Source of the DNA: Fodinicola acaciae
GTDB lineage: Bacteria > Actinomycetota > Actinomycetes > Mycobacteriales > HKI-0501
DNA length: 64,000 nucleotides
Direction: 5' to 3'
Assembly: GCF_010993745.1 (NCBI RefSeq)
Contig: NZ_WOTN01000001.1
Coordinates: 1,615,235-1,679,234, forward strand
Shown here: piece by piece, positions 26,642 through 30,742 of the stretch
How positions within the stretch are numbered: position 1 is the first letter of the stretch
How the letters are laid out: each line of letters starts with the position of its first letter
Made by a program: the position numbers and the translations under genes
Notes under the pieces: generated by a model
What the model saw: only the letters and a program-made list of their open reading frames with translations
Databases searched by the model: none
Told to the model about the DNA's origin: nothing

Positions 26642-26923
26642 TCACTTCGCCAGCATCGGTCCGAAGTCGGTCCGGTGGGCCTGCAGGTTCACCGTGCCGT
26701 TGTTGTCACCGGAGACGTGGACGACGCTGGTGGTGCGCCGCATCGTGCCGGCCGGGACGGTGCGGACGTTGGGTCCGAGGTTCACCGTTCTGGTGGCCAG
26801 ATGCATCGCGAACACGTCCTGGGGCGCGTCGTCGGGGCCAGCGGCCGCCGCGACGTAAACGTTCTTCGTGCCGTTGGCATTCTCCAAAATGAAGGCGATG
26901 CCACGGTCGGTCGGTGTGCTCAT
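26642..26923 (-). CDS. Small protein of unknown function, last gene of the Mau-like operon
   Basis: This 93-residue protein begins MSTPTDRGIAFILENANGTK. It has no signal peptide, membrane helix or cysteine. Alternating hydrophobic stretches (GIAFILENANGTKNVYVAAAA, HVSGDNNGTVNLQAHRTD) suggest a small beta sandwich or barrel of cytoplasmic type. Its start overlaps the previous stop as ATGA, so translation is coupled to the operon. I do not recognise the family. Because it is strictly bound to the Cys-rich exported protein and its thiol-redox helpers, a role in binding, chaperoning or silencing the product is possible but only a guess. Confidence 0.65.
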   Translation of the reverse strand: MSTPTDRGIAFILENANGTKNVYVAAAAGPDDAPQDVFAMHLATRTVNLGPNVRTVPAGTMRRTTSVVHVSGDNNGTVNLQAHRTDFGPMLAK

Positions 26924-27351
26924 CCGTTCGTCCTTTCGCTGTCAACACTCACTTTCTCGGCCGCCGGTGGGGCTGAGGCGACCAGCGGGTCGGCGGACGC
27001 GGCCGGTACGCCGAACATGATCTGCCGCCAGTCACCCCGGTAGGGATAGATCCCGCAGCTGGTCTGGATGCCCAGCCGTGCCGGCAGCCGGGCCGCCATG
27101 ATGTGCGCGTTCACCTTCCCCATCTCGTAAACGTCCTCCAGGTGCCGCCACAACGTCACGCTGAGCATGGTGCGCTCGCGCCAGAGCACGACCGCCTTGC
27201 CGCCGACGAAACCGGTGGCGTGCCGGCGGACCTGCCGCTTTATCCGCACGTGCAGGAAAAGCAGCACGAACAACCGGCTCACCGACGGGCACGCGAACCG
27301 GGTGATGACCACCTGGCCACGCCGGTCACTGACCCGTTCGCCGTTTTCCAT
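26920..27351 (-). CDS. Unknown protein with monooxygenase-like (ferredoxin-fold) features
   Basis: This 143-residue protein begins at the ATG at 27351, eight bases after GGGAG. It starts three bases after the CcdA-like stop and overlaps the next gene by four bases. The core VVLWRERTMLSVTLWRHLEDVYEMGKVNAHIMAARLPARLGIQTSCGIYPYRGDWRQIMFG has the strand-helix rhythm and aromatic placements of small antibiotic-biosynthesis-monooxygenase or heme-degrading ferredoxin folds, which I state only as a resemblance. A hydrophobic patch (SVSRLFVLLFLHVRIKR) is probably a core strand rather than a membrane helix. Two cysteines are present (FACPS, TSCGI). The last 25 residues are Ala/Pro/Val rich and probably disordered. 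Confidence 0.65.
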   Translation of the reverse strand: MENGERVSDRRGQVVITRFACPSVSRLFVLLFLHVRIKRQVRRHATGFVGGKAVVLWRERTMLSVTLWRHLEDVYEMGKVNAHIMAARLPARLGIQTSCGIYPYRGDWRQIMFGVPAASADPLVASAPPAAEKVSVDSERTNG

Positions 27352-27354
27352 CGC

Positions 27355-27996
27355 TCACGCTCCCAACATCACGTACGCGGCGACGCCGACCAACGCGACA
27401 CCGCTGGCTCGGCGGACCCAGTGAAACCACGACTGGCGGAAATCCCCCAGCCGGGCCGGCCCCCGCAGCTGGAAGACAATGCTGCGGCCCACGACCATGA
27501 GCACCGTCACGGTCGTCATCCCGCACAGCGTCCACCACGAGGCGCCCGGCGCGAGCAGCACCAGACCGGTCAGCGCCACCCAGGTCAGTGACGTCGATTT
27601 CTGCGTGGTGAACAGCAGCGAGAGGTCGAATCCCCAGACCACGCCGAGCTTTCCCGGCGGCATGGTTTTCAGGTGTTCCACCGGCACCTGGCGCCAGACG
27701 TGCGGCGTACGGGCGGCCAGGTCGAGCAGCGCGAAAAGCACCAGGAGAACGCCGGCGATGATCTGCCTGACCAACGACGGGATCAACCAGACCGCCAGCG
27801 AACCGACGGCGAAGACAGCGGTCGCCAGCACAGCCGACGCCACCATGCCGCCGATCCAGAGACCGGCCAGAAACCTCGCGCCCCGCGCCTTGCTGCGTTT
27901 GAGCATCGGACCGGCGACCCCGGCCATGGACTGGCCTCAAGGGCTGAAGATCTGCAGGATCGCCGCCACCCCGCCGATAATCAGCCAGGTCGCCAT
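27355..27996 (-). CDS. CcdA/MauF-like redox membrane protein with an in-frame TGA at codon 20
   Basis: Reading from the ATG at 27996 gives MATWLIIGGVAAILQIFSP, then TGA (27939-27937), then GQSMAGVAGPM in the same frame to the stop at 27355 (213 codons before it). In CcdA-like actinobacterial membrane proteins the equivalent place reads SPCG, where the cysteine is redox-active. TGA replaces that codon here, so selenocysteine, a TGC/TGT-to-TGA mutation or an assembly error are all possible. The ATG at 27927 (GAGG seven bases upstream) would give a 190-residue protein lacking the first membrane helix and the motif. About five further helices follow, including GKLGVVWGFDLSLLFTTQKSTSLTWVALTGLVLL. 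The gene starts three bases after the Cys-rich gene's stop and presumably passes electrons for disulfide handling. Confidence 0.7.
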
Positions 27997-27999
27997 GGA

Positions 28000-28332
28000 T
28001 CAGTTGTAGCGGCAGTCAGCGGCCGACAGCACATCTCCCGGAGTTTCGCAGCAGGAGCAGTGCAAGAAGCCGCCGCTGGCGGTGCAGTACCAGATGTAGC
28101 CGGCGTGGGCGTGGCAGTAGTCGTACGAGGTGTTGGGCGGGTAGTTGTAGAGGTTGCAACAGGCCGGCCGGCCCGCGTCGGCCGGAGACGCGCTCGCCGC
28201 GGCCGCCTTGTTGGGGCGGCCGAAAAGCCCTGCCGACACGGCGACACCGGCCGCGCCGATGGCCGTCAGGACCCGCCTCCTGAGCATCTTCTTGCCGGTC
28301 ACCGCGGCGACCGGGCCTTCTGGTGCTGTCAT
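28000..28332 (-). CDS. Tat-exported protein with eight cysteines, resembling the N-terminal part of MauA
   Basis: This 110-residue protein starts at the ATG at 28332, overlapping the MauD-like stop (ATGA). Residues 14-46 form a twin-arginine-type signal: KKMLRRRVLTAIGAAGVAVS then PNKAAAASAS. The mature 60-residue part has eight cysteines (58, 59, 73, 83, 92, 94, 95, 107) and one tryptophan (81). The stretch YIWYCTASGGFLHCSCC resembles the YWRxCxxDGxxCxC region of methylamine dehydrogenase small subunit MauA. The protein is too short to hold the second half of MauA or the tryptophan pair that forms its TTQ cofactor. Order behind MauE- and MauD-like genes copies the mauE-mauD-mauA order. Four disulfides outside the cell are likely. 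A peptide effector or bacteriocin is an alternative. Confidence 0.75.
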   Translation of the reverse strand: MTAPEGPVAAVTGKKMLRRRVLTAIGAAGVAVSAGLFGRPNKAAAASASPADAGRPACCNLYNYPPNTSYDYCHAHAGYIWYCTASGGFLHCSCCETPGDVLSAADCRYN

Positions 28333-28862
28333 GAGACTCCTTCCAATACCTTGGAAATCTGGCCAAGAAGAGGTTGGACCTTGCTGAACGTGTACGCCTC
28401 GACCAGCACGCCACGCTGGAAGCGCAATGCCGTCGGGCTCATCTTGACGCCGAAGTTCGTCGCCATCCACGAGCCGCCTTCGTCGACGTGGTGCGGCAGG
28501 TGGTCGAGCCCGTAGTGCTCGACGAAGTCCACCCCGACCGGCGCCGCCGCGCATGACACCACGATGCCCACGTCGCCGAGGGTTTGCCGCGTATAGCTGG
28601 AAAGCTCCTGCGCGACGTTGGCGCAGGTGGTGCAGATCGAGCTGAGCACCAGGACGGTCGCGGCCGGGCGGTCGGCCAGGTGTGCCAGCCCCGCCGGCCA
28701 TTCCTGCGCGGTGGCGCCGGCCGTGAAGTCGGAGTACGGCGTGACGTGTTGCTCCTCGCGCGCCTCCGGCACCCGGCTGGAAAGCTCGCCGACCATCGCG
28801 AAAAGCAGCACCACAGCGGCGGTCAGCACCAGCAGGGCAACCGCACCCAGGATCATCATCAT
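28329..28862 (-). CDS. MauD-like membrane-anchored thioredoxin-fold protein
   Basis: This 177-residue protein has one N-terminal transmembrane anchor (MMMILGAVALLVLTAAVVLLFAMV) and an external thioredoxin-like domain with a CxxC active site, Cys77-Thr-Thr-Cys80 in LVLSSICTTCANVAQEL. In methylamine utilisation clusters MauD has this layout and is needed to form or rearrange the many disulfides of the small subunit. The cis-proline region is suggested by GVKMSPTALRF (residues about 145-155). It overlaps the MauE-like gene upstream and the Cys-rich gene downstream by four bases each. I infer that the Cys-rich product is its substrate. An ordinary TlpA-like reductase is the alternative. Confidence 0.8.
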   Translation of the reverse strand: MMMILGAVALLVLTAAVVLLFAMVGELSSRVPEAREEQHVTPYSDFTAGATAQEWPAGLAHLADRPAATVLVLSSICTTCANVAQELSSYTRQTLGDVGIVVSCAAAPVGVDFVEHYGLDHLPHHVDEGGSWMATNFGVKMSPTALRFQRGVLVEAYTFSKVQPLLGQISKVLEGVS

Positions 28863-29383
28863 CCGGCCGGCTCCTCTCGATTGCGAACGTTGTCAATAAT
28901 GCGCAGCAGGTGTCCGCGATTGGCCCACATCAGCCATCCCGCGGAAAACACCGTGGTCAACAGTGCTGTCGTCGCCACGAAAGTTTCGTCGTACGCGCCC
29001 ATCCACAGGCTGACGGCCGACACGACGACGAACACCAAGCCGGTGAGGACGTTTGCCATGCCCAGCGGTTTTCCGTTCTGCGTACCGAAACAACCGCAGG
29101 GCTCGCTGCTTCCGGTGACCAGACCGGCCAGCCCGAGCACGGCAAACAACAGGCCCAGCGTGCCGGCGAGCACCAGCCCGGCCGGCCTGACCGGCGGCAA
29201 CACGACCGCGAGCACGGTGGCCAGCTCCGCGACGGCGGTCAGTTTTGTCAGCCAGCGCAACGACTCGGCCCGCAGCGGCAGCACCTCGGCCAGCGCTTTA
29301 GCGCTAATCCCCGGTCGTACGATTTTGGCGGCCCCAGCCTGCAGGAACATGCTGAGGACGCCTGCGTTGGCGATTGCCAACAC
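28859..29383 (-). CDS. MauE/DoxX-like redox-associated membrane protein
   Basis: This 174-residue integral membrane protein has four helices: NAGVLSMFLQAGAAKI, LTAVAELATVLAVVLPPV, GLVLAGTLGLLFAVLGLAGLVTG and VLTGLVFVVVSAVSLWMGAY. The loop SSEPCGCFGTQNGKPLG carries the CxC pair and Phe-Gly of MauE-family proteins, which support disulfide formation with MauD. The start is uncertain: GTG at 29383 is the usual-type codon. GGAGG lies six bases before an in-frame ATC further upstream (29407), so a longer protein cannot be excluded. It is the first gene of a six-gene operon running to 26642, and 135 bp separate it from the terminator of the protease gene. Confidence 0.82.
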   Translation of the reverse strand: MLAIANAGVLSMFLQAGAAKIVRPGISAKALAEVLPLRAESLRWLTKLTAVAELATVLAVVLPPVRPAGLVLAGTLGLLFAVLGLAGLVTGSSEPCGCFGTQNGKPLGMANVLTGLVFVVVSAVSLWMGAYDETFVATTALLTTVFSAGWLMWANRGHLLRIIDNVRNREEPAG

Positions 29384-29568: not shown

Positions 29569-30555
29569 TCAGGCGGCCTGCGCCTTGTTGTAGAGATTCT
29601 GAGCGTCCGCACCGAAATACGGTCCGAACATCCAGATGGAGACCAGGTTGATCTTGTAGCTGTTCACCGAGTTGAGCAGCCCGGTGCCGGTCGACTCGTT
29701 GAAGCTCCGGAACCACGGACCACCACTCGCGCCACCGGTCATGTCACAGGTCATGCCGATGCCGTCGCTGATCAGCGCGTTGAACGTGTTGCCGCTGCAG
29801 TAGATCATCTTGGTGCCGTCGTACGGGTCGGCCGCCGGCCAGCCAAACGCGTACATCGCCGCGTTTTTTGCCTGGTTGAAGGCCACACCCTGGCCACCGA
29901 CCACGTCGGTCAGCGACTTGCCGTTGAGCTGGTTGACCACGGCGGCGCCGACGTCGTAGTTGATGTCCTCGCTGGCGACCCACTGCGGCGTCGACATCGT
30001 GGCCCGCGCCGACCAGGTGCCGTAGGGCGCGTTTCCGTTGTTGTAGGCCGGAACGAAGGTCCACTTGGTGTGGAAGTTGCCGCCGAGCTTGACGCAGTGC
30101 CCGGCGGTGATGACCACGCTCTTGTTGCCGCTGGTCACCGCGTTGCCGCTGCACGACGCGTTACGCGGAGTGCCGGCGTCGTTGTAGACGAAGAAAACCC
30201 GGCCGGCGGTGTGCACCACCGCGCCGCCACCGGTCCACGCGCCGCCACCGGACGGGAACGCCTGCGGTTGGACCACGCCACCAACCGCGGTCGGCCGTAC
30301 GGTCGCCGGCCGGCCGGCCGCGACCTTGCCGCTGATCTTCTTGGTCGTACGCGCCAGCAACTGGTCCATCGGGATGGCGGCACGCATCCGCGCCGGCGTC
30401 CAGTAGGCGGAGACCTTCTCGGCCTGCGCGTTGGTCACCGCCTGGGGGTGCGCGATCCCCGAGTCCGCCGACGCCGGCGCCGGCGCGAACAGTCCGCACG
30501 CCACCAACGTGCTCGCCGCGAGCACCGCACCGCTTCGCCAGTGTCTTCGCAACAT
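29569..30555 (-). CDS. Secreted trypsin-like serine protease
   Basis: The ATG at 30555 gives a 328-residue preproprotein. A Sec signal (HWRSGAVLAASTLVACGLFAPAPASA-DSG) is followed by a propeptide of about 70 residues, then a chymotrypsin-fold domain. His153 in VVITAGHCVKLGG, Asp201 in DINYDVGAAVV and Ser277 in CDMTGGASGGPWF form the catalytic triad. The cysteines around His and Ser suggest two disulfides. Similar actinomycete proteases act extracellularly, often with V8/glutamyl-like substrate preference. An in-frame start at 30615 would add 20 residues before the signal and is rejected; AAGGTGG lies five bases before the chosen ATG. The gene is monocistronic. Confidence 0.93.
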   Translation of the reverse strand: MLRRHWRSGAVLAASTLVACGLFAPAPASADSGIAHPQAVTNAQAEKVSAYWTPARMRAAIPMDQLLARTTKKISGKVAAGRPATVRPTAVGGVVQPQAFPSGGGAWTGGGAVVHTAGRVFFVYNDAGTPRNASCSGNAVTSGNKSVVITAGHCVKLGGNFHTKWTFVPAYNNGNAPYGTWSARATMSTPQWVASEDINYDVGAAVVNQLNGKSLTDVVGGQGVAFNQAKNAAMYAFGWPAADPYDGTKMIYCSGNTFNALISDGIGMTCDMTGGASGGPWFRSFNESTGTGLLNSVNSYKINLVSIWMFGPYFGADAQNLYNKAQAA

Positions 30556-30742
30556 AGGCACCACCTTCTCTGCCGACCGGCGCATCAGCCCGGTCATCCA
30601 CCGGAACCACCGCACGAATCGGATATGACCCGTTTGGTGCTAGCGAGCGTCCAACCGTTCGGCCCCGGTGACCATCGGCCGTACGGCCAGGAAGAGGGGA
30701 ATTAAAGAACGATTTACAGGACGCTGGCGATGTCGGCGCTGG

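Follow-up and report, generated by a model that had tools for sequence, protein, structure and literature searches.

The window, by which we mean the whole 64,000-nt stretch of Fodinicola acaciae DNA that was analysed, contains a gene in which an in-frame TGA codon is very probably decoded as selenocysteine (Sec). The gene occupies 27355..27996 on the minus strand and comprises 213 codons, with Sec as residue 20 (TGA at 27937..27939, minus strand). Translation runs from the ATG at 27996-27994 through MATWLIIGGVAAILQIFSP to the TGA at 27939-27937, continues in the same frame with GQSMAGVAGPML and ends at the TGA stop codon at 27357-27355; the original prediction, which had placed an in-frame TGA directly after a first membrane helix, is correct in both coordinates and sequence. 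The product, a distant relative of CcdA/DsbD_TM proteins, is predicted to span the membrane with six helices, and its TGA forms part of an S-P-U-G motif, from which we derive the family name SPUG, coined in the present analysis. The Sec reading is based on the codon found at this position among homologues, the sel genes of the host, the co-occurrence of the codon with SelA and tRNA-Sec, a SECIS-like hairpin downstream, a Sec formate dehydrogenase (Sec-FDH) serving as control, and a cassette found on a Streptomyces plasmid.

The codon itself is strongly conserved. The host genome (8.86 Mb in 4 contigs, here G000) holds two further copies of the family, both with TGA at the same codon, and a first collection search returned TGA in 12 of 12 relatives (Actinomadura, Micromonospora, Plantactinospora, Virgisporangium, Allorhizocola and two metagenome-assembled genomes, MAGs). 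It had been argued that a random nonsense mutation would rarely fall exactly on the position of a redox cysteine; with two paralogues and all twelve relatives carrying it, the placement lies far beyond chance. When a sample of 396 genomes of the phylum was searched with a profile, 54 contained the family, and the codon is visible in 52 of these (44 TGA, 8 TGC; 2 not scorable). In the profile alignment of loci, 83 rows have a codon at the site (72 TGA and 11 TGC); dropping 11 rows that repeat genes already counted leaves 72 non-redundant genes, with 64 TGA, 8 TGC and zero other codons, so that the alignment of homologues proposed earlier returns Cys or TGA only. Outside this count stand four rows (three genes, from G004, G284 and G360) that fall short of the site, as well as a weak partial match in G009 (E=2.7e-4) that the profile missed. 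The positions of S-P-U-G-x-S-M are each 89-100% conserved in 70 aligned members, giving the pattern by which selenoproteins are recognized: an in-frame TGA aligned with Cys and conserved flanks on both sides. The presence of the same TGA in many independent genomes rules out a sequencing error or a recent pseudogene in this strain, a reading of negligible probability that has the in-frame stop itself and nothing more in its favour, since TGA occurs in 64 genes, including the two paralogues and a copy on a complete Streptomyces plasmid.

Sec and Cys forms have been exchanged within the family. A FastTree phylogeny of 69 genes, from which L024 (divergent) and L016 and L063 (both truncated) were omitted, places the TGC forms on three branches: L061/L066/L072 (support 0.98), L075/L076/L077/L079 (support 1.0) and L078 alone. 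This suggests at least two, and probably three, Sec/Cys changes, the separation of L078 being seen in this one tree. Among 260 close pairs, third codon positions change most, both upstream and downstream of the TGA, with 1561 nonsynonymous versus 1183 synonymous codon changes; as the pairs share ancestry and nonsynonymous changes outnumber synonymous ones, we take the third-position excess as a mild sign of coding. The TGC forms L076-L079 are 476-511 aa long and have an extra C-terminal part; L078 gives sub-threshold beta-propeller matches. Two very divergent members, L091 (in G207) and L098 (in G139), keep U-G (SG-U-G in L098) and a downstream hairpin (weak in L091, -5.5 kcal), and given these the family may be wider than the 72-gene count.

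The same alignment bears on whether the TGA could be a true stop, with the protein starting by re-initiation at ATG 27927 and the first helix being a separate or vestigial leader. The GAGG that had been pointed out 7 nt upstream of this ATG is indeed present, and the plasmid homologue is annotated from the same Met. The GAGG is forced by the TGA followed by a Gly codon (TGA-GGN), however, and Gly comes next in 64 of 64 TGA genes. Moreover, the position of ATG 27927 is not ATG in 6 of the 64 TGA genes (TTC in 2, GTC in 2, CTG in 1, ATC in 1), eight homologues run continuously in one frame via TGC, S-P-U-G sits within a conserved helix, and both the Sec machinery and the hairpin described below track the TGA. 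With the Met codon not kept in these six genes, we reject re-initiation, which appears extremely improbable, in favour of Sec insertion.

The host is equipped to decode Sec. Contig C2 of its genome carries selB, selA, tRNA-Sec and selD in one cluster, all above curated cut-offs (tRNA-Sec 80.9 bits with anticodon UCA, selA 425.5, selB 287.2 and selD 386.5 bits). The genome search for these four genes that had been suggested as a check therefore finds all of them in one place, and the genome encodes the SelA, SelB, SelD and tRNA-Sec by which a selenoprotein assignment is judged. These factors, encoded elsewhere in the genome, would insert Sec at the TGA under the direction of the downstream hairpin. 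A further site of Sec use lies at C1:978610-981684 (L109, L110), a Sec formate dehydrogenase with the motif ENQARI-U-HSATVPG.

Of the 44 TGA-form genomes in the 396-genome sample, 43 have a SelA match, versus 1 of 8 TGC-form genomes (Fisher p=5e-7); for tRNA-Sec, at E 1e-9 or below, the counts are 41 of 44 and 1 of 8 (Fisher p=7e-6). These tests take genomes as independent, which they are not fully; the overall sample rates are 236/396 for SelA and 206/396 for tRNA-Sec. Outside the sample, SelA occurs in 4 of 5 close TGA relatives and 11 of 12 further genomes, with the same two counts for tRNA-Sec. Pooling all TGA-form genomes, in sets that may overlap, gives a SelA match in 58 of 61 and tRNA-Sec in 56 of 61. 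Two TGA-form genomes, G067 and G491, yielded neither SelA (E 1e-3), SelB (E 1e-60) nor tRNA-Sec (E 1e-9), and the SelA match of a third, G295, is weak (2.4e-12). G067 and G295 are drafts of ~220 and ~340 contigs, respectively, and the G491 locus comes from a MAG; in these three, the sel locus may simply be missing from the assembly. The single TGC-form genome with SelA, SelB and tRNA-Sec is G196, perhaps a case of a recent switch; its selB lies on contig C37, ~23 kb from the Cys-form gene. A separate observation concerns L018 (in G004), a copy of the gene module with only the 3' half of the membrane gene and without the Sec codon, in a genome where SelA, SelB and tRNA-Sec are present; it looks like a decayed copy.

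Some bacteria have UGA-reading tRNAs other than tRNA-Sec, and G067 and G491, with TGA and no detected sel genes, would fit a decoding of UGA as another amino acid (e.g. Cys inserted by a special tRNA). The SelA and tRNA-Sec matches in 58 and 56 of the 61 TGA-form genomes are hard to reconcile with this, as are the conservation of the SECIS hairpin and the position of the plasmid gene beside selD, selA and selB. We consider such read-through highly improbable and retain selenocysteine as by far the more probable amino acid inserted.

The hairpin lies at 27909..27925 (minus strand), with a 6-bp stem (GGCCGG/CCGGUC) and the loop GGUCG. It begins 11 nt past the TGA, and its loop begins 17 nt past it. 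A SECIS-like stem had been anticipated just 3' of the codon, and what is found is a hairpin with an fdhF-type GGUC loop at the expected distance: the GGUC loop is common to the window hairpin, Escherichia coli fdhF and the Sec-FDH of the host (our internal control for SECIS), and is located 18 nt from the TGA in the latter two vs 17 nt in the window. RNAalifold applied to 17 clade-I genes predicts a single hairpin spanning nt 15-31 (the T of the TGA being nt 1), with 6 bp and a 5-nt loop that reads GGUCG in 11 of the 17. In this alignment 100% of cells are paired, vs 20-65% in slid versions and with 0 of 500 shuffles equalling it. Two pairs show changes on both sides and three of the six stem pairs are invariant; the number of covarying pairs (2) is matched by 98 of 500 shuffles. 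The covarying pairs coincide with amino-acid changes (A to V with G to D or S), suggesting that RNA pairing may constrain the protein sequence. When a 47-nt segment is folded freely, the pairs of the window hairpin form with a probability of 0.63-0.70 (at least 0.98 in the plasmid copy), and in a 54-nt context an alternative fold beats it.

For bacterial SECIS elements (bSECIS), the published limits are a hairpin 16-37 nt downstream, a G within the first two loop positions and an energy of -7.5 kcal or lower (PMC13188914). By these limits and the loop pattern, 59 of 64 TGA sites pass, compared with 0 of 8 TGC sites and 169 of 1597 controls, the latter being codon-phased positions further down the TGA genes. 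The energy limit alone is passed by 1 of 8 TGC sites and 347 of the 1597 controls. All 59 passing TGA sites have an N(0-1)G[G/U] loop, and the window site falls within the limits (17 nt, loop GGUCG, -9.5 kcal). In five TGA genes the hairpin is too weak for the energy limit of -7.5 kcal, one of them being a host paralogue (L003, -7.2). Outside clade I, the best hairpin is found further down, with its loop 25-33 nt past the TGA.

A copy of the system resides on the Streptomyces anthocyanicus NBC 01636 plasmid NZ_CP109276.1. Its homologue is 54% identical, has TGA at the site and is preceded by AAGGAG upstream of the first-helix ATG. Within ~7.3 kb, the plasmid carries MauE, the thioredoxin-like protein, the Cys-rich peptide, the TGA gene, DN1, DN2, tRNA-Sec (on the opposite strand), selD, selA and selB. 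The homologue is annotated as a hypothetical protein from a Met past the TGA, and at least one RefSeq record therefore misses the Sec codon, with the gene start placed after it. No formate dehydrogenase is listed in the ~91 kb examined of this 387-kb plasmid, for which the gene table is incomplete, and neither of the two members from other clades used as plasmid queries (one from clade II, one from clade III) gave a match.

An AlphaFold2 model of the membrane protein built from 13 sequences is all-helical (pLDDT 81.4, pTM 0.79), which we read as six membrane helices; the first long helix is broken at S-P-U, and a second break occurs at ~residues 128-135. Invariant in the 70 aligned members are U/C20, G21, Q103 and T131. 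No other Cys is present in the first 230 residues of 41 of the 64 TGA proteins (two of the 41 being truncated sequences); the single further Cys of the window protein, in ...WWTLCGMT..., lacks conservation.

In CcdA/DsbD proteins, the redox pair consists of one Cys in the first helix and one in the fourth. Both are present in our comparison set of 14 CcdA/DsbD_TM proteins from the host and related genomes (two without the N-terminus). Single-pair hhalign runs align this set with SPUG over the whole length at 96.3% (local) and 98.1% (global), with SPC opposite SPU and the PC in the fourth helix of CcdA opposite T131-Q132 of the family. Controls gave 0.3% for reversed CcdA, 0.1% or less for shuffled sequences and 9.6% for MauE, and the earlier description of the protein as CcdA-like holds at the profile level (96-98%, controls at most 9.6%). 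The first residue of the redox pair is kept, as Sec or Cys, and the family has no conserved Cys at the fourth-helix position. Pfam reaches less far: the window protein (P0001) has no PF02683 match at E 0.1, the best of 10 further members scores 18.9 bits against the CcdA gathering cut-off of 27.1, and two family members give sub-threshold matches to PF02683/PF13386. Among the 50 Foldseek matches listed, CcdA (5VKV) has the highest probability (0.80; E=0.21, TM 0.37). With VIA-align, 522 of 978 chains reached a Z of at least 2 (maximum 5.7), general helical matches in which CcdA falls outside the 50 listed, providing no evidence against the relationship; a PDB profile search with the family gave a single match, Pendrin (E=0.017). 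At the profile level, the protein is thus a remote relative of CcdA/DsbD, with the first-helix redox residue and without a conserved second Cys.

Several small genes on the same strand surround the selenoprotein gene. A MauE-family membrane protein (28859..29383; PF07291, E=1e-15) is followed by a thioredoxin-like protein (28329..28862) that carries a CxxC motif (SSICTTC) and, at its N-terminus, a hydrophobic stretch; the window protein has no Pfam match of its own, and its relative in L012 gives a sub-threshold Thioredoxin match. Next comes a Cys-rich small protein with a TAT-type signal region (28000..28332), our proposed client, with 8 invariant Cys and 1 invariant Trp in 13 aligned sequences; the TAT model scores above the cut-off in the relative from L004 and below it in the window protein. 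Beyond the selenoprotein gene lie DN1 (26920..27351), with a predicted ABM-like (dimeric ferredoxin-like) fold, and the small protein DN2 (26642..26923), which is also encoded on the plasmid and was matched in 8 of the 15 clade-I loci. The DN1 model (pLDDT 75.5), antibiotic-biosynthesis-monooxygenase-like in predicted fold, matches FasU (Foldseek E=1.1e-5) and SnoaB (1.5e-4), and the PDB profile search with DN1 gave one match at E=1.3. Directly upstream of the module, the protein encoded at 29569-30615 (minus strand) has no Pfam match at E 0.1 or less; its sequence resembles that of an exported serine protease of the trypsin type (GASGGPW).

MauE, the thioredoxin-like protein, the Cys-rich peptide and DN1 were each found by tblastn in 15 of 15 clade-I loci (L002, L004-L017), the peptide match in L013 being positioned past the selenoprotein gene. 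The paralogue locus L003/L036 has the thioredoxin-like protein, the peptide and DN2 only. Outside clade I, where nine loci were viewed by crude ORF listing, the module is only partly supported. L088 has MauE (PF07291) and a TAT-type Cys-rich protein, L106 a Cys-rich protein with a TAT signal (above cut-off) and LGFP repeats, and L101, a TGC form, a thioredoxin-like ORF (sub-threshold AhpC-TSA), a short ORF resembling the end of MauE and a Cys-rich protein with LGFP repeats; L056 has a MauE match by tblastn (E=3e-4). In the crude ORF listings, no module neighbours were recognised for L105, L082, L076 and L078, nor for the TGC forms L099 and L100.

From this arrangement, we propose how the protein might work. 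Sec would replace the first-helix redox Cys of a CcdA/DsbD-type thiol electron carrier and, like that Cys in CcdA, would sit mid-membrane. Its exchange partners could be thiols in MauE and in the neighbouring CxxC thioredoxin-like protein, and this exchange would set or keep the disulfides of the exported 8-Cys peptide from the same module. Because most members have no other Cys, selenosulfide bonds formed with partner proteins would take the place of an internal disulfide in the cycle. That the Cys-rich peptide is the client of this exchange is suggested by gene neighbourhood, and we put it forward tentatively, at somewhat below an even chance. A broader proposal, more doubtful still, is that of a widespread actinobacterial single-selenium transmembrane redox system in which a CcdA-like carrier, having lost its second conserved Cys, would act through selenosulfide bonds with the CxxC thioredoxin-like protein and MauE to mature exported Cys-rich proteins. 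Such a system would bring its own tRNA-Sec, selD, selA and selB and so be mobile as an autonomous cassette.

The family appears to be new. None of 11 members scores above any cut-off in Pfam and NCBIfam release 20. A catalogue of bacterial selenoprotein families from May 2026 holds 119 by its own count (Table 1 of PMC13188914), and compared by name and motif, none of the rows there corresponds to SPUG or to a stand-alone CcdA-like protein. Among the literature matches listed, within the open-licence PMC scope, there is no report of the family. Because of these three results, we call SPUG a new selenoprotein family, as judged from its sequences, absent from the catalogues searched.

With SPUG, the bacterial selenoproteome gains a family seen in 54 of 396 sampled genomes, and its presence may be part of the reason that many actinobacteria retain Sec machinery despite its cost. 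As a putative membrane thiol carrier in which a single chalcogen is conserved, it also provides a test of how proteins of the CcdA type can function when no internal disulfide is available. The arrangement on the plasmid suggests that one client is enough to carry Sec decoding along, and if the cassette reading is true, one membrane protein could bring Sec decoding to a new host.

Several known systems resemble the module in part. The mau (methylamine utilisation) set comprises MauE, MauD, MauF and the light chain of methylamine dehydrogenase (MADH). As in that set, a MauE homologue, a thioredoxin-like protein and a TAT-type Cys-rich small protein adjoin a polytopic membrane protein. In contrast, the Cys-rich protein of the module fails the MADH light-chain model, and no MADH heavy chain is found among the 8 window proteins scanned with Pfam. 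TIGR02659 has no match in the window Cys-rich protein (E 1) or three relatives (E 0.5), the best score being 12.8 bits (L088, over the signal region) versus a cut-off of 196.85, and the PDB profile search with the peptide gave 7 matches (best E=0.14), none to MADH; we reject its identification as MADH light chain. CcdA/DsbD_TM proteins (PF02683, PF13386) share with SPUG the first-helix motif (SPC for SPU) and a full-length profile alignment, whereas SPUG has Sec for the first-helix Cys, T131 and no Cys at the fourth-helix PC, and scores below the Pfam cut-offs. In the catalogue, the family nearest by name is TsoB (NF045694), which is rhodanese/DsbD fusion-like with a UxxxxU motif (PMC13188914). 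With the catalogued selenoprotein families, SPUG shares the exchange of UGA and Cys codons, a bacterial SECIS shortly downstream of the codon and co-occurrence with SelA, SelB and tRNA-Sec.
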